Assembly (NCBI GenBank): GCA_963965975.1
Contig: OZ014421.1
Coordinates: 4,701,001 to 4,765,000, forward strand
Length of the DNA: 64,000 nt
Direction: 5' to 3'
Source: Xestospongia bergquistia
Taxonomy: Eukaryota; Porifera; Demospongiae; Haplosclerida; Petrosiidae
The notes beneath the pieces were generated by a model, which was given only the letters and a program-made list of their open reading frames with translations, was not told the DNA's origin and ran no database searches. The position numbers and the translations under genes were made by a program. Positions 1 through 32,079 of this stretch are shown one piece after another (position 1 is the stretch's first letter; each line of letters opens with the position of its first letter).

Positions 1-2633
1 AGTTGAATTATTCTCCTATAAGTGCAGCTGTTGATATTGCTCCTGATGTCCGTCAACAAACAGAATCAAACTTCATTGTAGAACCACTTTTTAAAAATTG
101 TCAAATAATTGATCACAGGCTTGTACCTATGAATGTCGAGGATGACTCAACTCCTATTATTGGAAAAGGAGTATTTCTAATAACAAAATTGAAAGTCCAT
201 TTCAAAGGACACACAATATTTGAAGGGAACAATAACACAGCTTTGTGTCTTATCTCAGCTATTGTGATAATTAAGAATGAATCTGAAGTCACATTTTATA
301 ATAATAGAGGCAGCAAAGGTGGAGCAATAGCACTGGAAGAATTTTCAATTATTCGTTATGAAAATGATGTTGTTTTTAATTTTACTTACAACATAGCTAG
401 TTTAGTAGGAGGAGCTATTTATGTCTCAAATCAGGACCAACATCTTTCCTTTGCATCACACACTTGTTTCCTTCAGAGTACCAATAAAAGTGGAGCTCAA
501 AATGTGACTTTTCATTTCCAAAATAATCTATCTAAAAGCGTTAAACATTCCATTTATATTGTGGCATTACACCCCTGTCAATATGGTTGTGAACCGCCTA
601 TCCCATCTAATGTTAATCCTTTTAATAATAACAGTGACAATTGTTTGGGTCAATTTTACCTTCATGATCATGAAGTAATGACTGAAGTATCTGATATCAT
701 ACTTAATATTTCTATGATCACAGTCATACCAGGAAGAGCCACATATTTACCAGTTGAATTTAGAGATGATCTTGGACATAATGTTACACCAATGCCTGTG
801 TGTTTTGCAGAATTTGATCATAATCAGTCACAGCATGGTGTTCATCTTGATCAACTATCAAATGTCATTACAAATAATCAAATTATACTACATGGACAAC
901 CAGGTGGAAAAGGGATCATCACTTTGACTCCTCTTGGCAATCGAGGTTCACAAGTTCAAATTAACTTCAACCTGTCTTATTGTCCTCCAGGCTATGTCAA
1001 CCATAAAGGTAGTTGTCAATGTTCTGCAACAATGGACAGTACTCACTGGTACAATGGTATACTGGGATGTAATGACACAGCAATGGCTGCACTTGTTACA
1101 CCAGGTTTTTGGATGGGGTACATTGGAAATAAAGAAGGTGATGAGTCTGCTGACAACTTATACACTAGTGACTGCCCTTTGGGATATTGTAATGTCTTCT
1201 ACCAAGTTAATGAAAATTCTAATGGACGTTTCAGTCAAGTAAACTCAAATGCAACGAAAAAGGGTCTAAAAGAAGTTATTTGTGCTCATAACAGACGAGG
1301 GACATTATGTGGTGAGTGTGTGCCAGGTACATCAGTATACTATCACTCTAGTTCTTATCAATGTAAGAAAAACAATAACTGTCATCTTGGGGTTTTATTC
1401 TATACAGTATCAGACTTAATACCAATAGTTGTATTATTTACTATTGTTCTCTATTTTAATGTTAGCTTTACCAGTGGATCTGCTTATAGTATTGTCTTTA
1501 TGGCACAACAGTTTAGAAATCTAGAAATAACAGTTCAAGGTGCTATACATTATCAAAGTTAAAGTCTGTTAACAATAGCAAATACTTTGTATAACATCTT
1601 AAACCTCAACTTCTTCACCATTGATAAAATATCATTTTGTATTTGGTCTGGTGCTACTACTCTTGATATATTAGTAATGAAATATGTATCAATACTTTTT
1701 GCCATTAGTCTAGTACTCTTACTAGTATACTTACAAAACTGTTGTTTCTTAAAGTGTAGATGTGGACGACGTAGCTCAGTTGTACAGGGACTAACAGCAT
1801 TTTTAGTCATATGCTACTCACAGTGTACTTATGTGACATTTAATATCCTCAACCAAGAAACACCAAGAGGGATAGGAGGCAAGCTTGCAAACAAAGTTGT
1901 ATTTTTATCTGGAGAGACACCATATTTTAGAGACAAACATCTCTACTATGCCATACCAGCTGTTGTGTGTTTATGTCTTATTGTAGTCCCTGTTCCTCTA
2001 ATTCTTCTCTTTGATCCTCTTCTTTTGAGAATTGAAGATCGTATCAGTTGGTGCTTTTATCGACGACCATGGACTCATACACGTGATCGTTTTAAACCAC
2101 TTCTAGATTCATTTCAAGGTTGTTTTAAAGATCGTTTTCGTTGTTTTGCAGGTTTGTTTTTTTGTTATCATCTAATGATACTTGTAAATATTGTTGTTTC
2201 AATGAACACACTTCAACATCACTTTGATTTGGAGATAATATTGATTCTAATATTAGTTCTACAAGCTATTGTACAACCATTCCGTGACATCACACATAAC
2301 ATCATTGCAATCCTTTCCTTTTGTAACTTGGTAGTTATTAATTTAATAACTATCAGAGTCTATTCATCTGTATCAAACAAAGGTTATACTACAGAGACTC
2401 ATATATTGCAGTGGATACAGACAATATTGGTTTATATGCCTTTATTGGTTGCTACAATCTGGTTGATAAGGAAAGTGATAAAGAAATATATCATGAAAGT
2501 AAAATGTCTCAAGAAGTTATTTTATCAACGAGATGATAAAGAGTATGAAGTTAGTTTGATATATGATAGAGGTGAGAAATATGGCTCAATGGAGGTTGAT
2601 GGTCATCGTCGACGTCATCAAGGACAATCATAA
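1..2633 (+). pseudogene. Array copy 1: beta-helix/multi-pass membrane protein, 5' cut by window, one nonsense codon
   Basis: This is the 3' two thirds of the tandem family; the signal peptide and first beta-helix part lie upstream of the window. The frame runs from base 3 and stops at TAA 1560-1562, where the other copies read CAA (Gln) in the stretch after the first membrane segment. The same frame then continues unbroken to 2633, covering the remaining membrane segments and the tail. Visible parts in order are the second beta-helix block with a GGAIYVSN turn, a beta-sandwich-like segment (from ITVIPGRATYLPVEF), the Cys-rich module (CPPGY, CQCS, GTLCGEC) and the multi-pass region. A single C-to-T change is the only lesion seen, so this could be a recent pseudogene, a null allele or a sequencing error. 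The first ~470 bases match copy 3 almost perfectly, then similarity switches to the other copies. Confidence 0.8.
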
Positions 2634-5303: not shown

Positions 5304-8300
5304 ATGGTCCTACTAATGATGATGTATACTTCAATAGGTCATATCTTCCTTCTTATCTCAATGGATACCTCACATGCTATGACAATGATAAACATCAATG
5401 AAGTAAGTGGTCAAGATAATACTGGTTGCATTAAAAATCCTCCATCACATCCTTGTCAAACTCTTGATTATGCTGTAAGCAATATTCAAATAACTAATAG
5501 CGTTGGCATTTATCTTGAGTCTGAACTTGTATCACTTAAGAATGTTGTGACATTTAACAATTGGAATAATGTCACAGTCTATGGAAAAGGTCCTAAACTA
5601 ACTACAATAAAATGTGAATTAGATGATGGTAATAAAGCAGGTCTTGTCTTTGAAAATTCTAAAGGGGTCCAGTTAAAAAAAATAACTATCATGAATTGCT
5701 CTGTGTCTAAAAATTTCACTGACACATTTCCTTATCAAAGTGGTCTCATCATAATCAATACAACTGATATCAATATACAGAGTATCTTTGTCATTGAAAA
5801 TAATGGATTTGGTGCTGTATTGATAAACAATGAAGGAGTCATCAAAATAAATTCCTCACTATTTTCAAACAATTCATTAGATCCTACTCTAGACTCTATT
5901 CATGGAGGTGGTGGTATGTTTATTATGGTATCAGCATGTAGTCCAATATCAAAACAATGTCCTACATCCCTTACTATAGGACATGGAAACTATACAATTT
6001 TGGACTCAAACTTTACACACAATAATCGTATCAAACCTAATGTTACTGGAGAGTGGACAGTATCATTTGGAGGTGAATTAAATATATTTTTGAGATGGAA
6101 TTCAAAAGAGAATCATTTCCAAATTTCTAACAGTTTGTTTGATAATAACACAGCAGTTGGAGGAGGAGGAATGGGTCTAGCTATTAGAGACACAGCTAAT
6201 AATAACAAGATAACAATAGATAATTGCTGTTTTCATTGCAATAATGGTAGTACATATGGAGGAGGAGGGGGAGGTATAAAAATGAGTGTATATTCCATTA
6301 ATAAAATAAGCAGTCCATACAACAATAATATCATCATTAACAAGTGTAACTTTATTGCTAATACTGCAATTAATGGAGCAGGAACCAGTCTTTTTGCAAG
6401 TTCAAGGTTAAATAATTCATATACCAACATACTTATCTTCATTTTTTGCACATGGCGATTCAATTATTCTTCTATAAGTGCAGCTGTAGATATTGCTCCT
6501 GATGTCCGTCAACAAACTGACTCAAACTTCATTGTAGAACCTCTCTTTAAAAATTGTCAAATCATAGGACACAATCCAAACCCAATGAAAGGTAACAATT
6601 CCACTCTTTTTATTGGAAAGGGAATATTTCTGATAACAAAACTGAAAGTCTACTTTGAAGGACAAATAATACTTAAATACAACCATGACACAGCTTTGTG
6701 TCTTATTTCAGCTACTCTCATAACTAAGAATGGATCTGAAGTCACATTTTATGATAACAAAGGCATCAATGGTGGAGCAATAGCACTGAAAGAATTTTCA
6801 ATTATTCAATATGAAGATAATGTCACTTTTAATTTTACTCGCAACATAGCTAGTTTAGTAGGAGGAGCTATTTATGTCTCAAATCAGGAAGAACATCTCT
6901 TCTTTGCATCACACACTTGTTTCCTTCACAGTACCAATAAAAGAGGAGCTCAAAATGTGACCTTTCATTTCAAAAATAATCTATCTAAAAACATTCCTCA
7001 TTCCATTTATATTGTGGCATTACATCCCTGCCAATATATTTGTGATCTACATAATCCATCTAATGTTAACCCTTTCAATGATAACAGTAATAATTGTTTG
7101 GGTCAATTTTACTTTCATGATCAATAATCTTTTGAAGTACTAACTGAAGTATCTGATATTATACTTAATATTTCTATGATTACAGTCATACCAGGAAGAG
7201 CAACATATTTACCAGTTGAATTTAGAGATGATCTTGGACATAATATTACACAAATAACTATATGTTTCACGGAAATTAATCATAAACACAAACAACATGG
7301 TGTTCATCTTGATCCATTATCATATGTCATTACAAATAATCAAATTATATTACATGGACAGCCAGGTGAAAGTGGAAGAGTTATCTTGACTCCTGTTGGC
7401 ACACGAGATACACAAGTCCACATTAACTTCAACATATCTCATTGTCCTCCAGGCTATGTCATCCATAAAGGTAGTTGTCAATGTTCTGCAACAATGGACA
7501 GTACTCACTGGTACAATGGTATACTGGGATGTAATGACACAGCAATGGCTGCACTTGTTACACCAGGTTTTTGGATGGGGTACATTGGAAATAGAGAAGG
7601 TGATGAATCTGCTGACAACTTGTACACTGGTGACTGCCCTTTGGGATATTGTAATTTGTTCTACCAATTTAATGAAAATTCTAATGGACGTTTCAGTCAA
7701 GTAAAATCAAATCCAACGAAAAGGGTCTAGAGGCAGTTATTTGTGCTCATAACCGACGAGGGACATTATGTGGTGAGTGTGTCCCAGGTACATCAGTATA
7801 CTATCACTCTAGCTCTTATCAATGTAAGAAAAACAAGAACTGTCATCTTGGCTTTTTATTCTATACAGTATCAGAGTTAATACCAGTAGTTGTATTATTT
7901 ACTATTGTTCTCTATTTTGATATTAGCTTTACCAGTGGATCTGCTTATAGTATTGTCTTTATGGCACAACAGTTTCAAAGTCTGGGGATAACAGTTCAAG
8001 TTGCTATACATTATCAAAGTCAAAGTCTGTTAACAGTAGCAAATAGTTTGTACAACATTTTAAACCTCAACTTCTTTAACATTGATGAACTATCATTTTG
8101 TATTTGGTCTGGTGCTACTACTCTTGATACATTAGTAATGAAATATGTATCAATACTTTTTGCCATTAGTCTAGTACTCTTACTAGTATACTTACAAGAC
8201 TGTTGTTTCTCAAAGTGTAGATGTGGACGACGTAGCTCAGTTGTACAGGGACTAACAGCATTTTTAGTCATATGCTACTCACAATGTACTTATGTGACAT

Positions 8301-9094
8301 TCAATATCCTCAACCAAGAAACACCAAGAGGGATGGGAGGCAAGCTTGCAAACAGAGTTGTATTTTTATCAGGAGAGATACCATATTTTAGAGACAAACA
8401 TCTCTACTATGTCATACCAGCTGTTCTGTGTTTATGTCTTATTGTAGTCCCTGTTCCTCTAATTCTTCTCTTTGATCCACTTCTTTTGAGAATTGAAGAT
8501 CGTATCAGTTGGTGCTTTTATCGACGACCATGGACTCGTTTTCGTGATCGTTTTAAACCTCTTCTGGATTCATTTCAAGGTTGTTTTAAAGATCGTTTTC
8601 GTTGTTTTGCTGGCTTGTTTTTTTGTTATCATCTAATGATACTTGTAAATATTGTAATTTCAATGAACACACTTCAACATCACTATGTATTGGAAATAAT
8701 ATTGATTCTAATACTAGTTCTACAAGCTATTATGCAACCATTCCGTGACACCACTCATAACATCATTGCAGTCCTCTCCTCTTGTAACTTGGTAGTTATT
8801 AATGTAATAACTACTAGAGTCTATTCATCTGTATCAAACAAAGGTTATACTACAGAGACACATATATTGCAGTGGATACAGACAATATTGGTTTATATGC
8901 CTTTATTGGTTGCTACAATCTGGTTGATAAAGAAAGTAATAAGGAAATATTTTATGAAAGTGAAATGTCTCAAGAAGCTATTGTATCAACCAGATTATAA
9001 ACAGTATGAAGTTTGTTTGATATATGATAGAGGTAAGATATATGGCTCAATGGAGGTTGATGGTCATAATCGACATTGTCAAGGACTATCATGA
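5304..9094 (+). pseudogene. Array copy 2: beta-helix/multi-pass membrane protein, nonsense plus frameshift
   Basis: Full-length relative of copies 4 and 5. The start at 5304 opens a hydrophobic signal peptide ending near THAMTM. The frame runs to TAA 7125-7127, where homologues have CAA in a DQQS motif, and resumes in frame to ~7,717. There one A is missing from a run (AACGAAAAGGG against AACGAAAAAGGG in copy 1), shifting the frame; the membrane region continues in the new frame to 9094. All domains are present: N-terminal beta-helix repeats with GGGG turns, second GGAI beta-helix block, beta-sandwich-like segment, Cys-rich module, membrane segments and basic tail. Two lesions make it a probable pseudogene, though sequence otherwise stays close to the open copies, so inactivation is recent. 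Confidence 0.85.
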
Positions 9095-11097: not shown

Positions 11098-14000
11098 ATG
11101 TTCCTACTAATGATGTTGTATTTTTCAGTGACTATTCTCTCCCTCCTTATCTCAATGGAGACTTCACATGCTATGATGATAACCATTAATAAAGTAAGTG
11201 GTCAAGATAATGCTAGTTGCATTAATAGTCCTCTATCACATCCTTGTCAAACTCTTGACCATGTTGTAAGCAATATTCAAATAACTAACAATGTTGGTAT
11301 TTATCTTGAGTCTGAACTTGTATCACTTAAGAGTGTTGTTATATTTAACAATTGGAATAATGTCACAGTCTATGGAAAAGGTCCTAAACTAACTACAATA
11401 AAATGTGAATTAGATAAAGGTGATAGAGCAGGTCTTGTCTTTGAAAGGTACAGTTAAGAAAACTAACTATTATGAATTGCTCTGTGTCTAAAAATTTCAC
11501 TGAAAATGATACATTTCCTTATCAAAGTGGTCTTATCATAATCAATACAACTGATATCAATATACAGAGTATCTTTGTCATTGAAAATAATGGATTTGGT
11601 GCTGTATTGATAAACAATGAAGGAGTCATCAAAATAAATTCCTCACTATTTTCAAACAATTCATTAGATCCTACTCTAGACTCTATTCATGGAGGTGGTG
11701 GTATGTTTATTATGGTATCAGCATGTAGTCCAATGTCAAAACAATGTCCTACATCCCTTACTATAGGACATGGGAACTATACAATTTTGGACTCAAACTT
11801 TACACACAATAATCGTATCAAACCTAATGTTACTGAACAATGGACAGTGTCATATGGAGGTGGATTAAATATATTTTTGAGATGGGGTTCAGAAGAGAAT
11901 GTTTTCCAAATTTCTAACAGTTTGTTTGATAATAACACAGCAGTTGGAGGAGGAGGAATGGGTCTAGCTATTAGAAACACAGCTAATAATAACAAGATAA
12001 CAATAGATAATTGCTGTTTTCATTACAATAATGCCAGTAAACAACAAGGAGGAGGGGGAGGCATAAAAGTGAGTGTAAATTCTTACACTATAACAAATGA
12101 TCCAGATAGCCCACATAACAACACTATTATTATTGAAATGTGTAATTTCATTAATAATACTGCAATGTATGGTGCAGGAACAAATGTTGTAGCAAGTACA
12201 GTGTTTGACAAAAAAACACACAACAACAACCTAACCTTCAGCTTTTGTAGATGGCAGTTCAATTATTCTCCTGTCAGTGCAGCTGTTGATATTGCTCCTG
12301 ATGTCCGTCAACAAACAGAATCAAACTTCATTGTAGAACCACTTTTTAAAAATTGTCAAATAATTGATCACAGGCTTGTACCTATGAATGTCGAGGATGA
12401 CTCAACTCCTATTATTGGAAAAGGAGTATTTCTAATAACAAAATTGAAAGTCCATTTCAAAGGACACACAATATTTGAAGGGAACAATAACACAGCTTTG
12501 TGTCTTATCTCAGCTATTGTGATAATTAAGAATGAATCTGAAGTCACATTTTATAATAATAGAGGCAGCAAAGGTGGAGCAATAGCACTGGAAGAATTTT
12601 CAATTATTCGTTATGAAAATGATGTTGTTTTTAATTTTACTTACAACATAGCTAGTTTAGTAGGAGGAGCTATTTATGTCTCAAATCAGGACCAACATCT
12701 TTCCTTTGCATCACACACTTGTTTCTTAGAGAGCTTTACCAAAAGAATAAATGAAACTAAAAATGTGACTTTCCATTTCTGGAGTAATAAAGCAAAATAC
12801 TATAATAATTCCATTTATACAGTAGCATTACATCCCTGCAAATATGTTTGTGATCCACCTATCCCATCTAATGTTAACCCTTTCAATGAAAGCAGTAATA
12901 ATTGTTTGGGTCAATTTTACTTTCGTGATCAACAATCTCATGAAGTAATGACTGAAGCATCCTATATAATACTTCATGCAAATAACATTAAAATCATACC
13001 AGGAGTATCAACATACTTACATATTGAATGCAAAGATGATCTTGGACAGATTGTCACATTAATAACTGTGTATTTTGCAGAGGTTCTAAACAAATGTAAT
13101 CAACAACATAATGCTCTGGATTGTCATGATCCAGTATCACTTGTCATTATAAATAATCAAATTACACTACATGGACAACCAGGTGAAAAAGGTATCATCA
13201 CTTTGACTCCTCTTGGCAATCGAGGCTCACAAGTTCAAATTAACTTCACCCTGTCTTATTGTCCTCCAGGCTATGTCATCCATAAGCGTAGTTGTCAATG
13301 TTCTGCAACAATGGACAGTACTCACTGGTATAATGGTATACTGGGATGCAATGACACAGCAATGGCTGCACTTGTTACACCAGGTTTTTGGATGGGGTAC
13401 ATTGGAAATAAAGAAGGTGATGAGTCTGCTGACAACTTGTACACTAGTGACTGCCCTTTGGGATATTGTAATGTCTTCTACCAAGTTTATGAAAATTCTA
13501 ATGGACGTTTCAGTCAAGTAAAATCAAATCCAACAAGAAAGGGTCTAGAGGCAATAATTTGTGCTCATAACAGACGAGGGACTTTATGTGGTGAGTGTGT
13601 CCCAGGTACATCAGTATACTATCACTCTAGTTCTTATCAATGTAACAAAAACAAGAACTGTCATCTTGGCTTTTTATTCTATACAGTATCAGAGTTAATA
13701 CCAGTAGTTATATTATTTACAATTGTTCTCTATTTTAATGTTAGCTTTACCAGTGGATCTGCTTATAGTATTGTCTTTATGGCACAACAGTTTCATGCTC
13801 TTGAAATAACAGTTCAAGGTGCTATACATTATCAAAGTCAAATTCTGTTAACAATAGCATATACTGTGTACAACATTTTAAACCTCAACTTCTTTAACAT
13901 TGAGAAACTATCATTTTGTATTTGGTCTGGTGCTACTACTCTTGATACATTAGTAATGAAATATGTATCAATACTTTTTGCCATTAGTCTAGTACTGTTA

Positions 14001-14912
14001 CTAGTATACTTACAAGACTGTTGTTTCTCAAAATGTAGATGTGGACGACGTAGCTCAGTTGTACAGGGACTAACAGCATTTTTAGTCATATGCTACTCAC
14101 AGTGTACATATGTGACATTTAATATTCTCAGCAAAGAAACACCAAGTGGGATGGGAGGCAAGCTTGCAAACAGAGTTGTATTTTTATCAGGAGAGATACC
14201 ATATTTTAGAGACAAACATCTCTACTATGCCATACCAGCTGTTGTTTGTTTATGTCTTATTGTAGTCCCTGTTCCTCTAATACTTCTCTTTGATCCTCTT
14301 CTTTTGAGAATTGAAGATCGTATCAGTTGGTGCTTTTATCGACAACCATGGACTCGTATACGTGATCGTTTTAAACCACTTCTGGATTCATTTCAAGGTT
14401 GTTTTAAAGATCGTTTTCGTTGTTTTGCAGGTTTGTTCTTTTGTTATCATCTAATGATACCTGCAAGATTTGTTATTTCAATGAACACACTTCAATATTA
14501 CTATGTATTGGAGATAATATTAATTCTAATATTAGTTCTACAAGCTATTGTACAACCATTCCATGACATCACACATAACATCATTGCAGTCCTCTCTTTT
14601 TGTAACTTGGTAGTTATTAATTTAATAACTATCAGAGTCTACTCGTCTGTATCAAACAAAGGTTATACTACAGAGACTCATATATTGCAGTGGATACAGA
14701 CAATATTGGTTTATATGCCTTTATTGGTTGCTACAATCTGGTTGATGAAGAAAGTGATAAGGAAATATTTTATGAAAGTGAAATGTCTCAAGAAATCATT
14801 GTATCAACCAGATGATAAAGAGTATGAAGTTAGTTTGATATATGATAGAGGTGAGAAATATGGCTCAATGGAGGTTGATGGTCATTGTCGACATCGTCAA
14901 GGACTATCATGA
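11098..14912 (+). pseudogene. Array copy 3: beta-helix/multi-pass membrane protein, frameshift in N-terminal part, divergent cassettes
   Basis: The start at 11098 gives a signal peptide (MFLLMMLYF...). The frame breaks near 11,443-11,450, where about 10 bases are missing relative to copies 4 and 5 (GAAAGGTACAGTTAAG against a longer GAAAATTGTCAAGGGGTCC form). The rest is open from 11,472 to 14,912. The later frame starts with MNCSVSKNF, has no signal peptide, and would probably not reach the membrane correctly by itself. Two stretches diverge strongly from the other copies: ~12,080-12,250 (beta-helix repeats before the FNYSP motif) and ~12,726-13,150 (ESFTKRINETKN... through the beta-sandwich-like segment). 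The flanking blocks are almost identical to copies 1, 2 and 4. With one deletion only, a sequencing or allele problem cannot be excluded. Confidence 0.85.
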
Positions 14913-15932: not shown

Positions 15933-18900
15933 ATGATGATGTATGTTTCAATGGGTCTTATATTCCTTCTTATCTCAATGGTGACTTCACATGCTATGAT
16001 GATAATCATTAATAAAGTAAGTGGTCAAGATAATGCTAGTTGCATTAATAGTCCTCCATCACATCCTTGTCAAACTCTTGACTATGTTGTAAGCAATATT
16101 AAAACAACTAACAATGTTAGCATTTATCTTGAGAGTGAACTTGTATCACTTAAGAGTGTTGTTACATTTAACAATTGGAATAATGTCACAGTCTATGGAA
16201 AAGGTCCTAAACTAACTACAATAAAATGTGAAATGGATGATGGTAATAAAGCAGGTCTTGTCTTTGAAAATTGTCAAGGGGTCCAGTTAAGAAAACTAAC
16301 TATTATGAATTGCTCTGTGTCTAAAAATTTCACTGAAAATGATACATTACCTTATCAAAGCGGTCTTATCATAATCAATACAACTGATATCAATATACAG
16401 AGTATCTTTGTCATTGAAAATAATGGATTTGGTGCTGTATTGATAAACAATGAAGGAGTCATCAAAATAAATTCCTCACTATTTTCAAACAATTCATTAG
16501 ATCCTACTCTAGACTCTATTCATGGAGGTGGTGGTATGTTTATTATGGTATCAGCATGTAGTCCAATATCAACACAATGTCCTACATTCCTTACTATAGG
16601 ACATGGAAACTATACAATTTTGGACTCAAACTTTACACACAATAATCGTATCAAACCTAATGTTACTGAACAATGGACAGTATCATATGGAGGTGGATTA
16701 AATATATTTTTGAGATGGAATTCAAAAGAGAATCATTTCCGAATTTCTAACAGTTTGTTTGATAGTAACACAGCAGTTGGAGGAGGAGGAATGGGTCTAG
16801 CTATTAGAAACACAGCTAATAATAACAAGATAACAATAGATAATTGCTGTTTTCATTACAATAATGGTAGTACATATGGAGGAGGAGGGGGAGGTTTAAA
16901 AGTGAGTGTATATGCCATTAATAAAACAAACAGTCCATACAACAATACTATCATCATTAACAAGTGTAACTTTATTGCTAATACTGCAATTTATGGAGCA
17001 GGAACCAGTCTTTTTGCAAGTTCAAGATTAAATAATTCATATACCAACATGCTTATCTTTATCTTTTCTACATGGCAATTCAATTTTTCTCCTATAAGTG
17101 CAGCTGTAGATATTGCTCCTGATGTCCGCCAACAAACTGAATCAAACTTCATAGTAGAACCTCTCTTTAAAAATTGTCAAATACTTTACCACAGTCCAAA
17201 CCCAATGAAAGGTAACAATTCCACTCTTTTTATTGGAAAGGGAATATTTCTGATAACAAAACTGAAAGTCTACTTTGAAGGACAAACAATATTTGTACAC
17301 AACCATAACACAGCTTTGTGTCTTATTTCAGCTTCTGTGATAATTAAGAATGGATCTGAAGTCACATTTTATGATAACAGAGGCATCAATGGTGGAGCAA
17401 TAGCACTGAAAGAATTCTCAATTATTCATTATGAAAATGATGTCACTTTTAATTTTACTCACAACATAGCTAGTTTAGTAGGAGGAGCTATTTATGTATC
17501 AAATCAGGAAGAACATCTCTCCTTTGCATCACACACATGTTTTCTTCAGAGTACCAATAAAGTTGGAGCTCAAAATGTCACCTTTCATTTCAAAAATAAT
17601 CTATCTAAAAATATTCCTCATTCCATTTATATTGTGGCATTACATCCCTGCCAATATACTTGTGATCCTCATATCCCATCTAATGTTAACCCTTTCAATG
17701 ATGAGAGTGATAATTGTTTAGGTCAATTTTACTTTCATGATCAACAATCTTTTGAAGTAGTAACTGAAGTATCTGATATCATAGTTAATATTTCTATGAT
17801 CACAGTCATACCAGGAAGAGCAACATATTTACCAGTTGAATTTAGAGATGATCTTGGACATAATATTACATCAATGACTGTGTGTTTTGTAGAATTTGAT
17901 CATAATCAGCCACACCATAGTGTTCATCTCGACCCACTATCAAACATCATTACAAACAATCAAATTATATTACATGGACAGCCAGGTGAAAGTGGAACAG
18001 TTATCTTGACTCCTGTTGGCACACGAGATACACAAGTCCACATTAACTTCAACATATCTCATTGTCCTCCAGGCTATGTCATCCATAAAGGTAGTTGTCA
18101 ATGTTCTGCAACAATGGACAGTACTTACTGGTACAATGGTATACTGGGATGTAATGACACAGCAATGGCTGCACTCGTTACACCAGGTTTTTGGATGGGA
18201 TACATTGGAAATAGAGAAGGTGATGAATCTGCTGACAACTTGTACACTAGTGACTGCCCTTTGGAATATTGTAATTTGTTCTACCAAATTAATGAAAATT
18301 CTAATGGACGTTTCAGTCAAGTAAAATCAAATCCAACAAGAAAGGGTCTAGAGGCAGTTATTTGTGCTCATAACAGACAAGGGACATTATGTGGTGAGTG
18401 TGTCCCAGGTACATCAGTATACTATCACTCTAGTTCTTATCAATGTAAGAAAAACAAGAACTGTCATCTTGGCTTTTTATTCTATACAGTATCAGAGTTA
18501 ATACCAGTAGTTGTATTATTTACTATTGTTCTCTATTTTAATATTAGCTTTACCAGTGGATCTGCTTATAGTATTGTCTTTATGGCACAACAGTTTAGAA
18601 GTCTGGAAATAACAGTTCAAGGTGCTATACATTATCAAAGTCAAATTCTGTTAACAATAGCGAATACTGTGTACAACATTTTAAACCTCAACTTCTTTAA
18701 CATTGATAAACTATCATTTTGTATTTGGTCTAGTGCTACTACTCTTGATACATTAGTAATGAAATATGTATCAATACTTTTTGCCATTAGTCTAGTACTG
18801 TTACTAGTATACTTACAAGACTGTTGTTTCTCAAAGTGTAGATGTGGACGACGTAGTTCAGTTGTACAAGGACTAACAGCATTTTTAGTAATATGTTACT

Positions 18901-19715
18901 CACAGTGTACATATGTGACATTTAATATTCTCAACCAAGAAACACCAATAGGAATGGGAGGCAAGCACACAAGCACAGTTGTATTTTTATCTGGAGAGAT
19001 ACCATATTTTAGAGACAAACATCTCTACTATGCCATACCAGCTGTTCTGTGTTTATGTCTTATTGTAGTCCCTGTTCCTCTAATACTTCTCTTTGATCCT
19101 CTTCTTTTGAGAATTGAAGATCGTATCAGTTGGTGCTTTTGTCTACAACCATGGACTCGTATACGTGATCGTTTTAAACCACTTCTGGATTCATTTCAAG
19201 GTTGTTTTAAAGATCGTTTTCGTTGTTTTGCAGGTTTGTTTTTTTGTTATCATCTAATGATACTTGTAAATATTGTCACTGCAATGAACACACTTCAATA
19301 TTACTATGTATTGGAAATAATATTAATTCTAATACTAGTTCTACAAGCTATTGTACAACCATTCCGTGACATCACTCATAACATCATTGCAGTCCTCTCC
19401 TTTTGTAACTTGGTAGTTATTAATTTAATAACTATTAGAGTCTATTCATCTGTATCAAACAAAGGTTATACTACAGAGACTCATATATTGCAGTGGATAC
19501 AGACAATATTGGTTTATATGCCTTTATTGGTTGCTACAATCTGGTTGATGAAGAAAGTAATGAGGAAATATTTTATGAAAGTGAAATGTCTGAAGAAGTC
19601 ATTTTATCAACCAGATGATAAAGAGTATGAAGTTAGTTTGATATATGATAGAGGTGAGATATATGGCTCAATGGAGGTTGATGGTCATTGTCAACATTGT
19701 CAAGGACAATCATAA
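15933..19715 (+). CDS. Array copy 4: intact secreted-start beta-helix/multi-pass membrane protein, 1,260 aa
   Basis: The best preserved member, uninterrupted. Residues 1-21 form a signal peptide. Residues ~30-400 are pectin-lyase-like beta-helix repeats: a C..SPPSHPCQTL entry motif and Gly-rich turns such as GGGGMF, GGGGMGLAI and GGGGGG. Residues ~400-540 are a second helix block (GGAIAL, GGAIYVSN) like that of polymorphic outer-membrane proteins. About 620-710 looks like a beta-sandwich (ITVIPGRATYLPVEF...INFNISHCPPGY). About 711-845 is Cys-rich (CQCS, DCPLEYC, GTLCGEC). Hydrophobic segments lie near 846-870, 943-962, 976-999, 1032-1056, 1098-1119, 1125-1145, 1150-1171 and 1186-1207. The tail (1208-1260) is basic then acidic (KKVMRKYFMKVK, DDKEYEV). 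Many NxS/T sequons suggest a glycosylated extracellular part. A surface receptor or adhesion role is inferred from architecture; I recognise no named family. No introns, unlike PIK3R4 and KYAT3 next door. Confidence 0.88.
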   Translation: MMMYVSMGLIFLLISMVTSHAMMIIINKVSGQDNASCINSPPSHPCQTLDYVVSNIKTTNNVSIYLESELVSLKSVVTFNNWNNVTVYGKGPKLTTIKCEMDDGNKAGLVFENCQGVQLRKLTIMNCSVSKNFTENDTLPYQSGLIIINTTDINIQSIFVIENNGFGAVLINNEGVIKINSSLFSNNSLDPTLDSIHGGGGMFIMVSACSPISTQCPTFLTIGHGNYTILDSNFTHNNRIKPNVTEQWTVSYGGGLNIFLRWNSKENHFRISNSLFDSNTAVGGGGMGLAIRNTANNNKITIDNCCFHYNNGSTYGGGGGGLKVSVYAINKTNSPYNNTIIINKCNFIANTAIYGAGTSLFASSRLNNSYTNMLIFIFSTWQFNFSPISAAVDIAPDVRQQTESNFIVEPLFKNCQILYHSPNPMKGNNSTLFIGKGIFLITKLKVYFEGQTIFVHNHNTALCLISASVIIKNGSEVTFYDNRGINGGAIALKEFSIIHYENDVTFNFTHNIASLVGGAIYVSNQEEHLSFASHTCFLQSTNKVGAQNVTFHFKNNLSKNIPHSIYIVALHPCQYTCDPHIPSNVNPFNDESDNCLGQFYFHDQQSFEVVTEVSDIIVNISMITVIPGRATYLPVEFRDDLGHNITSMTVCFVEFDHNQPHHSVHLDPLSNIITNNQIILHGQPGESGTVILTPVGTRDTQVHINFNISHCPPGYVIHKGSCQCSATMDSTYWYNGILGCNDTAMAALVTPGFWMGYIGNREGDESADNLYTSDCPLEYCNLFYQINENSNGRFSQVKSNPTRKGLEAVICAHNRQGTLCGECVPGTSVYYHSSSYQCKKNKNCHLGFLFYTVSELIPVVVLFTIVLYFNISFTSGSAYSIVFMAQQFRSLEITVQGAIHYQSQILLTIANTVYNILNLNFFNIDKLSFCIWSSATTLDTLVMKYVSILFAISLVLLLVYLQDCCFSKCRCGRRSSVVQGLTAFLVICYSQCTYVTFNILNQETPIGMGGKHTSTVVFLSGEIPYFRDKHLYYAIPAVLCLCLIVVPVPLILLFDPLLLRIEDRISWCFCLQPWTRIRDRFKPLLDSFQGCFKDRFRCFAGLFFCYHLMILVNIVTAMNTLQYYYVLEIILILILVLQAIVQPFRDITHNIIAVLSFCNLVVINLITIRVYSSVSNKGYTTETHILQWIQTILVYMPLLVATIWLMKKVMRKYFMKVKCLKKSFYQPDDKEYEVSLIYDRGEIYGSMEVDGHCQHCQGQS

Positions 19716-21627: not shown

Positions 21628-21686
21628 GCTAGTCTCATCCACTTTTTACCTGGGGGCATGACAGTCTGGGGACGAGACTAGTAAAA
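21628..21686. repeat. Small inverted repeat
   Basis: CTAGTCTCATCC... is mirrored by ...GGGGACGAGACTAG about 35 bases on. This could form a hairpin or be the remains of a terminal-inverted-repeat element. A diverged half copy (GCTAGTCTTATCCACAGACT) lies at ~27,481. Confidence 0.45.
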
Positions 21687-22192
21687 GATGTTTGGTTGAT
21701 TTAACTAATATGGGTATCACTGTAACAGCTGTTTGGTTGATTTAACTAATACAGGTATCACTCCAACACCTGTTTGGTTGAATTAACTAATACAGGTATC
21801 ACTGTAACAGCTGTTTGGTTGATTTAACTAATACAGGTATCACTGTAACAGCTGTTTGGTTGATTTAACTAATATGGGTATCACTGTAACAGCTGTTTGA
21901 TTGATTTAACTAATACAGGCATCACTGTAACAGCTGTTTGGTTGATTTAACTAATTGGGTATCACTGTAACAGCTGTTTCATTGATTTAACTAATACAGG
22001 TATTACTGTAACAGCTGTTTGGTTGATTTAACTAATACGAGTATCACTGTAACAGCTGTTTGGTTGATTTAACTAATACGAGTATCACTGTAACAGCTGT
22101 TTGGTTTATTTAACTAATTGGGTATCACTGTAACAGCTGTTTGGTTGATTTAACTAATTGGGTATCACTGTAACAGCTGTTTGGTTAATTAT
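21687..22192. repeat. ~41-bp minisatellite, about 12 units, upstream of copy 5
   Basis: The unit reads TATCACTGTAACAGCTGTTTGGTTGATTTAACTAATACAGG; some units are shortened to 39 bases by AATTGGG in place of AATACAGG. Nearly every unit carries the palindrome CAGCTG, an E-box consensus. The last unit runs directly into the foldback element (TTTGGTTAATTATCTAACACATA), whose arm end resembles the unit, so the array probably grew from the element's terminus. Confidence 0.85.
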
Positions 22193-22579: not shown

Positions 22580-25500
22580 ATGCTCCTACTAATAATGGTG
22601 TATGCTTCAATGGATATTCTCTTCCTTCTTTTCTCAATGGACACTTCACATGCTGTGATGATAACCATTAATAATGTAAGTGGTCAAGATAATATTAGTT
22701 GCATTAATAGTCCTCCATCACATCCTTGTCAAACTCTCGACTATGTTGTGAGCAATATTAAAACAACTTACAATGTTAGCATTTATCTTGAGAGTGAACT
22801 TGTACCACTTAAGAGTGTTGTTACATTTAACAATTGGAATAATGTCACAGTCTATGGAAAAGGTCCTAAACTAACTACAATAAAATGTGAATTGGATGAT
22901 GGTGATAAAGCAGGTCTTGTCTTTGAAAATTCTCAAGGAGTCCAGTTAAGAAAACTAACTATTATGAATTGCTCTGTGTCTAAGAATTTCACTGATACAT
23001 TTCCTTATCAAAGTGGTCTTATCATAATCAATACAACTGATATCAATATACAGAGTATCTTTGTCATTGAAAATAATGGATTTGGTGCTGTACTGATAAA
23101 CAATGAAGGAGTCATCAAAATAAATTCCTCACTGTTTTCAAACAATTCATTAGATCCTACTCTAGACTCTATTCATGGAGGTGGTGGTATGTTTATTATG
23201 GTATCAGCATGTAGTCCAACATCAACACAATGTCCTACATCCCTTACTACAGGACATGAAAACTATACAATTTTGGATTCAAACTTTACACACAATAATC
23301 GTATTAAACCTAACGTTCCTGGACAGTGGACAGTGTCATATGGAGGTGGATTAAATATATTTTTGAGATGGGGTTCAAAAAATAATGTTTTCCAAATTTC
23401 TAACAGTTTGTTTGATAGTAACACAGCAGTTGGAGGAGGAGGAATGGGTCTAGCTATTAGAGACACAGCTAATAATAACAAGATAACAATAGATAATTGC
23501 TGTTTTCATTACAATAATGGCAGTAAATATGGAGGAGGAGGGGGAGGTATAAAAGTGAGTGTATATTCCATTAATAAAACAAACAGTCCATACAACAATA
23601 CTATCATCATTAACAAGTGTAACTTCACCTTTAATACTGCAATTTATGGTGCAGGAACCAGTCTTTTTGCAAGTTCAAGATTAAATAATTTATATACCAA
23701 CATTGTCATCTTCAGCTTCTGTATATGGCAGGTCAATTATTCTCCTATAAGTGCAGCTGTAGATATTGCTCCTGATGTCCGTCAACAAACAGACTCAAAC
23801 TTTATTGTAGAACCTCTCTTTAAAAATTGTCAAATAATTGATCACAGGCTTGTACCCATGAAAGGTAACAATTCCACTCTTTTTATGGGAAAGGGAATAT
23901 TTCTGATAACAAAACTGAAAGTCTACTTTGAAGGACAAATAATATTTAAATACAACCATGACACAGCTTTGTGTCTTATTTCAGCTACTCTCATAATTAA
24001 GAATGGATCTGAAGTCACATTTTATCATAACAGAGGCATCAATGGTGGAGCAATAGCACTGAAAGAATTCTCAATTATTCAATATGAAGATAATGTCACT
24101 TTTAATTTTACTCACAACGTAGCTAGTTTAGTAGGAGGAGCTATTTATGTCTCAAATCAGGAAGAACATCTCTTCTTTGCATCACACACTTGTTTCCTTC
24201 AGAGTACCAATAAAGGTGGAGCTCAAAATGTGACCTTTCATTTCAAAAATAATCTATCTAAAAACATTCCTCATTCCATTTATATTGTTGCATTACATCC
24301 CTGCCAATATACTTGTGATCTACATATCCCATCTAATGTTAACCCTTTCAATGATGACAGTAATAATTGTTTGGGTCAATTTTACTTTCGTGATCAACAA
24401 TCTTTTGAAGTAGTAACTGAAGTATCTGATATCATAGTTAATATTTCTATGATCACAGTCATACCAGGAAGAGCAACATATTTACCAGTTGAATTTAGAG
24501 ATGATCTTGAACATAATGTTACACAAATAACTATATGTTTCGCGGAAATTAATTATGAACACAAACATCGTGGTGTTCATCTTGATCCACTATCATATGT
24601 CATTACAAATAATCAAATCATATTACATGGACAACCAGGTGAAAGTGGAACAGTCTTCTTAATTCCTGTTGGTAATCGAGTTTCACAAGTTCATATTAAC
24701 TTCACCCTGTCTTATTGTCCTCCAGGATATGTCATCCATAAGCATAGTTGTCAATGTTCTGCAACAATGGACAGTACTTACTGGTACAATGGTATACTGG
24801 GATGTAATGACACAGCAATGGCTGCACTCGTTACACCAGGTTTTTGGATGGGGTACATTGGAGATGGAGAAGGTAATGAGTCTGCTGACAACTTGTACAC
24901 TAGTGACTGCCCTTTAGGATATTGCAAAGTCTTATACCAAAATTCTAAGGGACGTTTCAGTCAAGTAAAATCAAATCCAACAAAAATTGATCTAGAGGCA
25001 GTTATTTGTGCTCATAACAGACGAGGGACATTATGTGGTGAGTGTGTCCCAGGTACATCAGTATACTATCACTCTAGTTCTTATCAATGTAACAAAAACA
25101 AGAACTGTCATCTTGGATTTTTATTCTATACAGTATCAGAGTTAATACCAGTAGTTGTATTATTTACTATTGTTCTCTATTTTGATATTAGCTTTACCAG
25201 TGGATCTGCTTATAGTATTGTTTTTATGGCACAACTATTTCAAAGTCTAGAAATAACAGTTCAAGGTGCTATACATTATCAAAGTCAAAGTCTGTTAACA
25301 ATAGCAAATACTTTGTACAACATTTTAAACCTCAACTTCTTTAACATTGAGAAACTATCATTTTGTATTTGGTCTGGTGCTACTACTCTTGATACATTAG
25401 TAATGAAATATGTATCAATACTTTTTGCCATTAGTCTAGTACTGTTACTAGTATACTTACAAGACTGTTGTTTCTTAAAGTGTAGATGTGGACGACGTAG

Positions 25501-26338
25501 CTCAGTTGTACAGGGACTAACAGCATTTTTAGTAATATGCTACTCACAGTGTACATATGTGACATTTAATATCCTCAACCAAGAAACACCAAGAGGAATG
25601 GGAGGCAAGCTTGCAAACAAAGTTGTATTTTTATCAGGAGAGATACCATATTTTAGAAACAAACATCTCTACTATGCCATACCAGCTGTTCTGTGTTTAT
25701 GTCTTATTGTAGTCCCTGTTCCTCTAATACTTCTCTTTGATCCTCTTTTTTTGAGAATTGAAGATCGTATCAGTTGGTGCTTTTATCGACAACCATGGAC
25801 TCGTATACGTGATCGTTTTAAACCACTTCTGGATTCATTTCAAGGTTGTTTTAAAGATCGTTTTCGTTGTTTTGCAGGTTTTCTATTTTGTTATCATCTA
25901 ATGATACTTGTAAATATTATCATTTCAATGAACACACTTCAATATTACTATGTATTGGAGATAATATTGATTCTAATACTAGTTCTACAAGCTATTGTAC
26001 AACCATTTCGTGACATCACTCATAACATCATTGCAGTCCTTTCCTTTTGTAACTTGGTAGTTATTAATTTAATAACTATTAGAGTCTATTCATCTGTATC
26101 AAACAAAGGTTATACTACAGAGACACATATATTGCAGTGGATACAGACAATATTGGTTTATATGCCTTTATTGGTTGCTACAATCTGGTTGATGAAGAAA
26201 GTAATAAGGAAATATTTTATGAAAGTGAAATGTCTGAAGAAGTCATTGTATCAACCAGATGATAAAGAGTATGAAGTTAGTTTGATATATGATAGAGGTG
26301 AGAAATATGGCTCAATGGAGGTTGATGGCAATCATTAG
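22580..26338 (+). CDS. Array copy 5: intact beta-helix/multi-pass membrane protein, ~1,252 aa
   Basis: Open throughout. An in-frame ATG at 22,526 would add 18 polar residues before the signal peptide. The ATG at 22,580 (MLLLIMVYASMDILF) matches the start used by the other copies and gives a normal signal sequence, so it is preferred. TTTTGCTTCAG just upstream (22,555-22,565) looks like a splice acceptor, so a 5' untranslated exon is possible. The domain order equals copy 4: beta-helix with GGGG turns, second GGAI helix block, beta-sandwich-like segment, Cys-rich module (CPPGY, GTLCGEC), hydrophobic segments and basic tail. Differences from copy 4 include a shorter Cys-rich insert (lacking the NENSNG motif) and an early stop that trims the last residues to MEVDGNH. 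It lies downstream of the E-box minisatellite and the foldback element. Function unknown; a surface receptor is inferred. Confidence 0.87.
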   Translation: MLLLIMVYASMDILFLLFSMDTSHAVMITINNVSGQDNISCINSPPSHPCQTLDYVVSNIKTTYNVSIYLESELVPLKSVVTFNNWNNVTVYGKGPKLTTIKCELDDGDKAGLVFENSQGVQLRKLTIMNCSVSKNFTDTFPYQSGLIIINTTDINIQSIFVIENNGFGAVLINNEGVIKINSSLFSNNSLDPTLDSIHGGGGMFIMVSACSPTSTQCPTSLTTGHENYTILDSNFTHNNRIKPNVPGQWTVSYGGGLNIFLRWGSKNNVFQISNSLFDSNTAVGGGGMGLAIRDTANNNKITIDNCCFHYNNGSKYGGGGGGIKVSVYSINKTNSPYNNTIIINKCNFTFNTAIYGAGTSLFASSRLNNLYTNIVIFSFCIWQVNYSPISAAVDIAPDVRQQTDSNFIVEPLFKNCQIIDHRLVPMKGNNSTLFMGKGIFLITKLKVYFEGQIIFKYNHDTALCLISATLIIKNGSEVTFYHNRGINGGAIALKEFSIIQYEDNVTFNFTHNVASLVGGAIYVSNQEEHLFFASHTCFLQSTNKGGAQNVTFHFKNNLSKNIPHSIYIVALHPCQYTCDLHIPSNVNPFNDDSNNCLGQFYFRDQQSFEVVTEVSDIIVNISMITVIPGRATYLPVEFRDDLEHNVTQITICFAEINYEHKHRGVHLDPLSYVITNNQIILHGQPGESGTVFLIPVGNRVSQVHINFTLSYCPPGYVIHKHSCQCSATMDSTYWYNGILGCNDTAMAALVTPGFWMGYIGDGEGNESADNLYTSDCPLGYCKVLYQNSKGRFSQVKSNPTKIDLEAVICAHNRRGTLCGECVPGTSVYYHSSSYQCNKNKNCHLGFLFYTVSELIPVVVLFTIVLYFDISFTSGSAYSIVFMAQLFQSLEITVQGAIHYQSQSLLTIANTLYNILNLNFFNIEKLSFCIWSGATTLDTLVMKYVSILFAISLVLLLVYLQDCCFLKCRCGRRSSVVQGLTAFLVICYSQCTYVTFNILNQETPRGMGGKLANKVVFLSGEIPYFRNKHLYYAIPAVLCLCLIVVPVPLILLFDPLFLRIEDRISWCFYRQPWTRIRDRFKPLLDSFQGCFKDRFRCFAGFLFCYHLMILVNIIISMNTLQYYYVLEIILILILVLQAIVQPFRDITHNIIAVLSFCNLVVINLITIRVYSSVSNKGYTTETHILQWIQTILVYMPLLVATIWLMKKVIRKYFMKVKCLKKSLYQPDDKEYEVSLIYDRGEKYGSMEVDGNH

Positions 26339-28605: not shown

Positions 28606-31534
28606 ATGTTTCTAATAATGATGTTGTATTTTCCAGTGAATATTCTCTTCCTTCTTATCTTAGTGGACACTTCACATGCTATGATGATAACCATTAGTAA
28701 AGTAAGTGGTCAAGATAATGCTAGTTGCATTAAAAATCCTCCATCACATTCTTGTCAAACTCTTGACTATGTTGTAAGTAATATTTAAATAACTAACAAT
28801 GTTAGCATTTATCTTGAGTCTGAACTTGTATCACTTAAGAGCATTGCAACATTTAACAATTGGAATAATGTCACAGTCTATAGAAAAGGTCCTAAACTAA
28901 CTACAATAAAATGTAAAATGAATGATGGTAATAAAGGAGGTCTTGTCTTTGAAAATTCTCAAGGGGTCTGTTAAGAAAATTAACTATTATGAATTGCTCT
29001 GTGTCTAAAAATTTCACCGATACATTTCCTTATCAAAGTGGTCTTTATCATAATCAATACAACTGATATCAATATACAGAGTATCTTTGTTGTTAAAAAC
29101 AATGAAGTTACACTTGTTAATGATGATAGTATTGTTGTGTAGACTGTTTATTTTATTAATGGAATATACACTCACTTTTATACCTCCCCCTCCTCCTCCA
29201 TATTTACTGCCATTATTGTAATGAAAATAGCAATTATCTATTATTATCTTGTTATTATTAGCTGTGTCTCTAATAGCTAGACCCATTCCTCCTCCTCCAA
29301 CTGCTGTGTTACTATCAAACAAACTGTTAGAAATTTGGAAAACATTATTTTTTGAACCCCATCTCAAAAATATATTTAATCCACCTCCATATGACACTGT
29401 CCACTCTCCAGTAACATCAGGTTTGATACGATTATTGTGTGTAAAGTTTGAGTCTAAAATTGTATAGTTTCCATGTCCTATAGTAAGGGATGTAGGACAT
29501 TGTGTTGATATTGGACTTCATCGCTAATACTCCAATTTATGGAGCAGGAATCAGTCTTTTTGCAAGTTCAAGATTAAATAATTCATATACCCACATTGTC
29601 ATCTTCGGCTTCTGTACATGGGAGCTGAATTATTATCCTGTGAGTGTAGCTGTTGATATTGCTCCTGATGTCAGTCAGCAAACTGACTCAAACTTCATTG
29701 TAGAACCTCTCTTATTTAAAAACTGCCAAATCATTTACCACAATCCAAACCCAATGAAAGGTAACAATTCCACTCTTTTTATTGGAAAGTCTACTTTGAA
29801 GGACAAACAATATTTGTACACAATTATAAAACAGCTTTATGTCTTATTTCAGCTACTCTCATAATAAAGAATGGATCTGAGGTCATATATTATAATAACA
29901 AAGGCATCAATAGTGGAGCAATAGCACTGCAAGAATTCTAAATTATTCAATTTGAAGACAATATCACTTTTAATTTTATTCACATACAACATAGCTAGTT
30001 TAGTAGGAGGAGCTATTTATGTTTCAAATAAGGAAGAATATCATTCCTTTGCACCACACGCTTGTTTCCTTCAGAGTACCAATAAACGTGGAGCTCAAAA
30101 TGTAACCTTTCATTTCAAAAATAATCTATCTAAAAATATCCCTCATTCTATTTATATTGTGGCATTACATTTTTGCCAATATACTTGTGATCTACATATC
30201 CCATCTAATGTTAACCCTTTCAATGATAACAGTAATAATTGTTTGGGTCAATTTTACTCTCATGATTAGCAATCTTTAGAAGTAGTAACTGAAGTATCTG
30301 ATATCATAGTTAATATTTCTATGATTACAGTCATACCAGGAAGAGCAACATATTTACCAGTTGAATTTAGAGATGATCTTGGACATAATGTTACATCAAT
30401 GACTGTGTATTTTGCAAAATTTGATCATTACCACCGTGAAATGTCATTACAAATAATCCTATTATATTACATGGGCAACCATGTAAAAGAGGAACAGTTA
30501 TCTTGACTCCTGTTGGCACACAAGGTACACAAATCCACATTAACTTCAACCTGTCTCATTGTCCTCTAGGATATGTCAACCATAAAGGTGACTTTAGGAT
30601 ATTGCAATGTCTTCTACCAAGTTTATGAAAATTCTAATGGATGTTTCAGTCAAGTAAAATCAAATCCAACAAAAATTGATCTAGAGGCAGTTATTTGTGC
30701 TCATAACAGACAAAGGACATTATGTGGTGAGTGTGTCAAAGGTACATCAGTATACTATCACTCTAGTTCTTATCAATGTAAGAAAAACAGGAACTGTCAT
30801 CTTGGATTTTTATTCTACACAGTATCAGAGTTAATACCAGTAGTTGTATTATTTACTATTGTTCTCTATTTTAATGTTAGCTTTACCAGTGGATCTGCCT
30901 ATATTATTGTCTTTATGGCACAACAGTTTAGAAGTCTAGAAATAACAGTTCAAGGTGCTATACATTATCAAAGTCAAAGTCTGTTAACAATGGCAAATAC
31001 TTTGTACAACATTTTAAACCTCAACTTCTTTAACATTGAGAAACTATCATTTTGTATTTGGTCTGGTGCTACTACTCTTGATACATTAGTAATGAAATAT
31101 ATATCAATAGTTTTTGCCATTAGTCTAGTACTCTTACTAGTATACTTACAAGACTGTTGTTTCTTAAAGTGTAGATGTGGACGACGTAGCTCATTTGTAC
31201 AAGGACTAACAGCATTTTTAGTCATTTGCTACTCACAGTGTACTTATGTGACATTTAATATCCTCAACCAAGAAACACCAAGAGGGATGGGAGGCAAGCT
31301 TGCAAACAAACTCGTATTTTTATCAGGAGAGATACCATATTTTAGAGACAAACATCTCTACTATGCCATACCAGCTGTTGTGTGTTTATATCTTATTGTA
31401 GTCCCTGTTCCTCTAATTCTTCTCTTTGATCCTCTTCTTTTGAGAATTGAAGATCGTATCAGTTGGTGCTTTTATTGACAACCATGGACTCGTATACGTG
31501 ATCGTTTTAAACCACTTCTGGATTCATTTCAAGG
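28606..31534 (+). pseudogene. Array copy 6: degenerate beta-helix/multi-pass family member with internal inversion and truncated 3' end
   Basis: The signal-peptide start at 28,606 is kept. TAA 28786-28788 replaces a CAA, and small deletions follow near 28,967. From ~29,098 to ~29,514 the gene is inverted and part of the neighbouring beta-helix block is lost. A ~28-base deletion lies near 29,790, with further stops around 29,940 and at 30,267-30,269 (TAG in the DQQS motif). Deletions near 30,440 and 30,588 remove most of the Cys-rich module. TGA 31476-31478 replaces CGA. At ~31,534 the coding similarity ends inside the membrane region and 3' flank-like DNA follows. The longest surviving frame (30,573-31,475) still covers the first membrane segments. 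Clearly non-functional. Confidence 0.92.
29098..29514 (-). repeat. Inverted segment inside copy 6
   Basis: On the minus strand it reads the beta-helix block with SYGGGLNIFLRWGS, SNTAVGGGGMGLAI and YGGGGGGIKVSVYS, as copy 5 does on the plus strand at ~23,215-23,630. The right edge repeats CTTCAT, which also occurs at the other end of the inverted piece. About 150 bases expected between the left flank and the block are absent. Confidence 0.9.
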
Positions 31535-32079
31535 TTATAAACAAAATGGAAGAATCACTGTAATTATGTTTCTGATTATAGAGGATTGTTTATGAGATAC
31601 TTACGTCAAATTTATATTTTGTAAGTTTCTGTGTAAATGTCTTAAAATACAGTATTGAATTATGATATTAGTATGTAATTAAAAATATATCAACCTGATC
31701 AATGAAGGGATATAGGTATTTCATCCTAACTTTGATATCAACAGCTCCAGATGATTCTTGATATGTAAAATTTTACTTGAACTGGTTCTTGACAACATAA
31801 GGTTGACAATTTCATTATATGGTCTGAATTAATATTATTTCTACATTTGTCTTAGAAAACTAACAAAAATATAGAGAAAATGAAATGGAAATAACATGAA
31901 CTTTACAAACTTGTAAGAATTTATAGATATTCAGATATAATTATATGTTTATTAATTAATTCTTGACAATATATATTAATAAATTGAAGTATACTCCATA
32001 TATAATAGAACACAGTTAGCAGATATCATTAAAAGTTATTAACGATTAACATAAAACATGAGAACTTTATAAAAGACTT
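31535..32079. other. Junction of copy 6 flank with the PIK3R4 3' end
   Basis: AT-rich flank similar to 19,965-20,510 after copy 4. Array and PIK3R4 meet tail to tail here. This is the arrangement that appears, decayed, in the upstream spacers. Confidence 0.6.

Follow-up and report, generated by a model that had tools for sequence, protein, structure and literature searches.

Pmp-type beta-helices, for which the part of PMC10715098 drawn on here gives FxxN and GGA-type turns as the signature, are known bacterial adhesins, and in the chlamydial Pmp proteins (PF02415, Chlam_PMP) they occur, non-canonical GGG turns included, in an expanded family of surface autotransporters. The trichomonad Pmp-like proteins form a comparable eukaryotic family, likewise expanded and with Pmp repeats outside, which according to the accessible sections of PMC6701047 often have a single membrane helix and carry endocytic tail motifs of the form NPx[YF]; those with endocytic motifs raise adhesion, making them the nearest precedent for the proteins considered here. 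Among sponges a massive expansion of a recognition-type family has been described for SRCR proteins (PMC10855680, in the portion used). Here we report that a stretch of 64,000 nucleotides from the sponge Xestospongia bergquistia (contig OZ014421.1, positions 4,701,001 to 4,765,000; hereafter the window) encodes, at 15933-19715 on the forward strand, an intact member of a giant family of multi-pass surface proteins of the Pmp type, apparently functional and uncharacterised, as judged from sequence comparison. Unlike the chlamydial proteins, this family ends in a eukaryotic multi-pass region, and no Pfam autotransporter barrel model was matched by the window protein or by 44 membrane regions; unlike the trichomonad ones it displays nine hydropathy peaks, and the NPxY pattern is found in none of 44 tails; and it differs from the SRCR expansion in its domain, in being intronless and in being multi-pass. 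No description of the family was recognised in the open-access papers searched. We read it, at about even confidence, as a set of endocytic recognition receptors that evolves by birth and death and would share one cytosolic coupling surface.

An earlier note on this DNA had proposed a one-frame gene at this place and had regarded it as the best candidate for an undescribed system. The gene was confirmed. The frame begins with an ATG, is intronless and extends over 1260 amino acids, and the chance of as many stop-free codons is about 1.6e-44 given the composition of the window (G+C 27.6-35.0% in 2-kb steps). Its N-terminus is hydrophobic by simple hydropathy, in agreement with the signal peptide that had been suggested. 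The system is larger than had been reported, as five more copies are present in the window in addition to a genome-wide set, and the gene under study is the fourth of six tandem copies, two of which are intact (Table 1). Searches of the 146.46-Mb assembly (21 contigs) with the membrane part of the window gene recovered 88 places, and at 70 of these the open frame is 1000 amino acids or longer. With a distant paralogue as the query, 762 first-look candidates were obtained, a count of candidates and not of genes; all 107 that were scored had E <= 4.5e-99, and 93 of these lay in frames of at least 1000 amino acids. Of two different DNA patterns for a single conserved loop, one matched 215 places (reversed control 0) and the other 44 (reversed control 2), both being counts of pattern matches that were not confirmed individually as genes. 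These figures suggest that the family occupies some 250 places or more, spread over contigs C1-C11 and C13-C15 at least, with its members arranged in tandem arrays. Since paralogues are as little as 18% identical in the membrane part, most of them are old. The same divergence led us to reject a burst of recent retrocopies, no search for an intron-bearing parent having been made. A bacterial or viral gene was likewise rejected: viral and prokaryotic collections yielded no relative at tblastn E <= 1e-3, paralogues occur throughout the 146-Mb genome, and the window contains U1 small nuclear RNA (snRNA) genes.

The family genes are under purifying selection. Ratios of nonsynonymous to synonymous substitution (dN/dS), computed by the Nei-Gojobori method for eight clusters comprising 28 members, were 0.30-0.54 in the ectodomain, 0.20-0.58 in the linker and cysteine module and 0.25-0.44 in the membrane part (overall 0.20-0.58 outside the tail), with 0.47-0.81 in the tail; the window gene and its own cluster are also below 1. 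Values below 1 in all eight clusters thus point to functional coding genes. The ectodomain ratio exceeded that of the membrane part in six of the eight clusters, by a modest difference. Further, in 10 of 14 chosen pairs the identical runs were longer than in any of 300 shuffles, which suggests gene conversion among members.

Several lines of evidence support the beta-helix that had been proposed for the ectodomain. In residues 22-600 of the window protein the turn GG[AGV][ILMVF] occurs six times (shuffled mean 0.18, maximum 3 in 1000 shuffles) and paired F..N...G[GA] units occur five times (shuffled mean 0.26, maximum 4 in 1000 shuffles); F..N alone is unexceptional in this ectodomain, with 10 occurrences against a shuffled mean of 4.55 and a maximum of 12. 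FxxN and GG[AGV]-hydrophobic turns are carried by the family ectodomains, and at E <= 0.01 Pfam Chlam_PMP is matched by 15 of 45 ectodomains (best 4.9e-9), as is Pfam Beta_helix (15 of 45); among seven full-length members, two score above the cut-off of Chlam_PMP. The window member itself matches Beta_helix at E 0.0061 with 16.6 bits, below the 25.9-bit cut-off, and is classed as Pmp-type by motif only. A profile search of the PDB with the ectodomain recovered a pectate lyase at E 0.0067. In the structure prediction and fold search that the earlier note had suggested, an ectodomain model built on the window-only alignment was poor, with a mean predicted local distance difference test score (pLDDT) of 38.6, and Foldseek returned 85 matches at E <= 10, none at or below 0.001 and the best at 0.086, though nearly all of the 50 matches listed were, judged from their titles, beta-helix or beta-solenoid proteins. 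N-glycosylation sequons are present in all 44 of 44 members (1110 in 35,969 ectodomain residues). The beta-sandwich suspected between this domain and the cysteine module (about residues 601-709) is weakly supported: the model, itself of low confidence, shows strands there, and there is an S-layer match with E 0.91.

To characterise the rest of the protein 46 further loci were fetched, 43 of which were aligned with three window members, and invariant positions were taken from 44 rows. The cysteine-rich module described around GTLCGEC was recovered as RQGTLCGEC, with C811, C820, C823 and C838 invariant in the 44 aligned members, together with C711, C724, C930 and eight Asn and Gly positions. Twelve Pfam families were touched by any of the 44 membrane regions at E <= 0.1, and the sole widely recurring one was DUF7630 (PF24633; 16 of 44 members, best 2.3e-4), whose match covers the cysteine module wherever its position was shown. 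DUF7630 was above its cut-off at three genome places, one of them inside a 1240-amino-acid frame, and the window member was unmatched. NCBIfam yielded just three families for these 44 regions, all at E 0.015 or worse, and a search of the PDB with the membrane profile returned nothing (best E 1.5). Hence the comparison with GPCR and other multi-pass families that had been called for found no family that explains the region, and no confident match of the whole protein to a named, characterised family occurred in the searches made. Family-averaged hydropathy resolves into nine peaks, and the window protein alone has seven above a stricter threshold; the multi-pass region of the earlier note stands, and its count of about eight segments becomes about nine in the family average. 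Loop charges (46 rows, N-terminus taken as outside) agree, with a mean lysine plus arginine content of 0.4, 4.6, 7.6 and 1.4 in the inside loops and 10.0 in the tail, against 2.3, 3.0, 0.5 and 0.7 in the outside loops. This distribution accords with the positive-inside rule and makes nine passes more probable than seven or eight.

These data bear directly on the seven-pass signalling region that had been envisaged. Adhesion G-protein-coupled receptors (GPCRs) combine a large ectodomain with a multi-pass core, as the family here does, and one could imagine a new GPCR-like class with a large ectodomain, a cysteine-rich neck, seven true helices plus extra hydrophobic segments, and G-protein signalling. 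The conserved cytosolic loops and the seven strong peaks of the window protein would fit such a class, and NCD3G, the cysteine domain of class C GPCRs, was matched by one member of 44 (E 0.077), the only GPCR-related Pfam match. However, neither a 7tm nor a GPS model is among the 12 Pfam families mentioned above, unlike the GPS/GAIN and 7tm composition of adhesion GPCRs, the membrane profile matches no solved structure, and nine peaks with a concordant charge pattern exceed the seven expected. With the membrane part accounted for by no family in Pfam or the PDB, the GPCR reading is left unsupported and we consider it unlikely. The accessible part of a 2025 survey of choanoflagellate GPCRs (PMC12716839) contains neither the term 'beta-helix' nor the term 'pectin'.

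The pattern of conservation, measured on 43 members weighted into 25 clusters, is informative in this context. The best-conserved 12-mer of the protein is GCFKDRFRCFAG with 3.06 bits per site; the loop between transmembrane helices (TM) 7 and 8 averages 2.41, the beta-helix 1.67 and the tail 1.07. Because the predicted cytosolic loops are the best conserved and the ectodomain and tail more variable, our reading is that one common intracellular partner may lie behind the diverse outer domains. In the tails YxxPhi is present in 38 of 44 members (shuffled mean 24.7, reached in 0 of 500 shuffles) and in 23 of 27 representatives (shuffled mean 14.4, again reached in 0 of 500 shuffles), and YG[ST]Phi, [DE]xxPL-type and xPxRxL-type patterns are present in 16, 6 and 14 of the 44, respectively. 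A passive adhesin or matrix anchor, in which the membrane region merely holds the ectodomain and takes no part in signalling or regulated uptake, would suit the bacterial adhesins built on the same helix (PMC10715098, in part); nevertheless, a core that crosses the membrane nine times and keeps its best-conserved residues inside is more elaborate than an anchor requires, and the tail motifs are enriched, so that this explanation too has a low probability. Somewhat lower still is that of a channel or transporter, gated mechanically or chemically and bearing an adhesive ectodomain, such as a relative of the fungal/protist TRP-like or FLC proteins. Nine passes and an outside N-terminal domain do resemble FLC-type proteins, but PF06011 (TRP-like/FLC) is absent from the Pfam families matched by the 44 members (E <= 0.1), the PDB profile search returned no channel, and conservation peaks in a cytosolic loop, with no obvious pore. 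Least probable is a distant kinship of the membrane region with JAMP (PF05571, JNK-associated multi-pass membrane protein), joined here to a beta-helix. A cysteine-rich module followed by a first helix is common to both. When the genome was searched for JAMP, nine matches lay outside the apparent JAMP gene on C8, and eight of these fell on the family (best E 0.003); one of 44 members was matched at 7.4e-4; the local hhalign score, 28.8, was above the 25.1 that was the highest of 60 shuffles; and the apparent JAMP gene (C8:785055-786708; L055, L056) lies within about 0.4 kb of L026, the family member with which the C8 array ends. However, JAMP has no beta-helix, all eight family matches are below the Pfam cut-off, the hhalign probability is 1% for the whole profile and 11% for a sub-profile whose alignment, like the similarity shown, is confined to the cysteine module and first helix, and the query was assembled by eye from exon-like pieces.

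We therefore return to endocytic recognition receptors. The anatomy, family size, purifying selection and conservation pattern are computed, whereas the placement and roles that follow are what we infer. The protein would sit in the plasma membrane with its Pmp-type beta-helix outside, followed by the cysteine-rich neck and the nine-pass region, and with its tail inside. The outer domain would bind a putative surface ligand, such as a glycan or protein of a microbe, a food particle or a neighbouring cell. The GC[FY]KDxxRxFAG loop before TM6 and the QP[YF]xxxxxNxxD loop between TM7 and TM8 would form a coupling surface for a common partner, and the bound receptor might be taken up via the YxxPhi-type tail motifs and clathrin adaptors. 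Diversity of the repertoire would be maintained through tandem duplication and decay, probably together with gene conversion, the net scheme being many inputs with a single output and uptake. This receptor-and-uptake mechanism is suggested by the size and arrays of the family, the Pmp repeats, the sequons, the cytosolic conservation and the YxxPhi tails, and further by the dN/dS pattern, the identical runs, the broken copies beside intact ones and the trichomonad precedent; it is in our view the most economical reading, with the balance for and against it roughly level. Of the surface recognition or adhesion receptor family that the earlier note had put forward, the family is thus established by the 215 and 44 motif places, and the receptor function is the best available reading.

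Certain observations weigh against this reading. Repeats are weaker near the 215-place subfamily, where L050 has three paired units, L051 none and L052 two, so the beta-helix there is deduced more from alignment than from motifs. The loop between TM1 and TM2, placed inside, has few charges and bears sequons in 16 of 44 members, and among the other loops sequon density does not distinguish inside from outside. The structure models are unusable (mean pLDDT 30.9 in the membrane part), which we attribute to an alignment limited to near-identical window copies. The YG[ST]Phi, [DE]xxPL-type and xPxRxL-type patterns were chosen post hoc from the tails, and general dileucine, NPxY, PPxY, PDZ and ITIM patterns lack clear enrichment in the 44 tails. 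Cluster averages of dN/dS, none of them above 1 and in two of the eight clusters higher in the membrane part than in the ectodomain, do not show a strong arms race. Finally, uneven constraint could mimic gene conversion.

How sponges, which lack adaptive immunity, sort microbes and deal with encounters with conspecific neighbours is an open question, and a family as large as this one, in which more variable outer domains sit on a constant membrane core, would be a leading candidate for the repertoire involved. Tentatively, and with rather less confidence than in uptake, one might go further and see here an undescribed animal receptor superfamily of several hundred intronless genes, with a nine-pass fold of its own and a common intracellular coupling site, that acts as a main repertoire for recognition of microbes, food or self and non-self in an animal lacking adaptive immunity. 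The family supplies a defined gene set for testing, and would add a multi-pass animal branch to the Pmp-type beta-helix proteins, mainly known as bacterial and trichomonad adhesins.

Table 1. Coordinates in the window of the parts of the gene and of the other family copies
Feature	Position	Strand	Basis or remark
Intact gene	15933..19715	+	Single open frame, 1260 codons and stop
Signal-peptide-like start, residues 1-21	15933..15995	+	Hydropathy
Pmp-type right-handed beta-helix ectodomain, residues 22-600	15996..17732	+	Repeat motifs above shuffles; family Pfam and PDB-profile matches
Strand-rich linker, possible beta-sandwich, residues 601-709	17733..18059	+	Low-confidence model, weak
Cysteine-rich module, residues 710-845	18060..18467	+	Invariant Cys in 44 members; DUF7630-like in other members
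Multi-pass membrane region, nine predicted helices, residues 846-1208	18468..19556	+	Family hydropathy and loop charges
GCFKDRFRCFAG, 12 residues of highest conservation, predicted cytosolic before TM6	19200..19235	+	3.06 bits per site
QPFRDITHNIIA, predicted to include cytosolic TM7-TM8 loop	19356..19391	+	2.41 bits per site
Charged tail with YGSM (a YxxPhi motif), residues 1209-1260	19557..19712	+	YxxPhi enriched across tails
Paralogue cut by window edge, interrupted frame (two frames)	3..2630	+	85% identical, tblastn
Paralogue, frame broken near residue 800	5316..9091	+	88% and 90% identical pieces
Paralogue, frame broken near residue 113	11110..14909	+	83% identical pieces
Second intact paralogue	22592..26332	+	89% identical over 1252 residues
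Degenerate, truncated, partly inverted paralogue	28618..31535	+ (29101-29517 on -)	tblastn

A mixture of intact and broken copies such as that in Table 1 is usual for birth-and-death families, and single frame breaks may be assembly errors. A 41-base unit is repeated in tandem 12.5 times between two of the gene copies (21681-22190). Elsewhere in the genome, a copy 91% identical to the window gene in the membrane part (L010, C10:4801500-4806800) stands beside broken fragments; its location on another contig is a sign of movement between chromosomes. Downstream of the gene copies, the interval 34530-62635 holds three copies of a segment about 10 kb long, two of them direct, at 34.5-44.4 kb and 52.7-62.6 kb (offset by 18,210 bases), and one inverted, at about 46.6-52.7 kb. 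The arms are 100% complementary over up to 581 bases and there is a run of N near 45.1 kb; the repeat reflects either a recent palindromic duplication or an error of assembly. Each direct copy contains one U1 snRNA gene, at 44264-44425 and 62474-62635 on the reverse strand, with 135.5 bits each. A silicatein motif, also looked for, was not found. Broken cox1-like copies in a nuclear contig (C6:3154917-3155898 and C6:3199148-3200446) are possibly nuclear mitochondrial insertions, and on the mitochondrial contig (18,997 bp) cox1 reads through with TGA as tryptophan.

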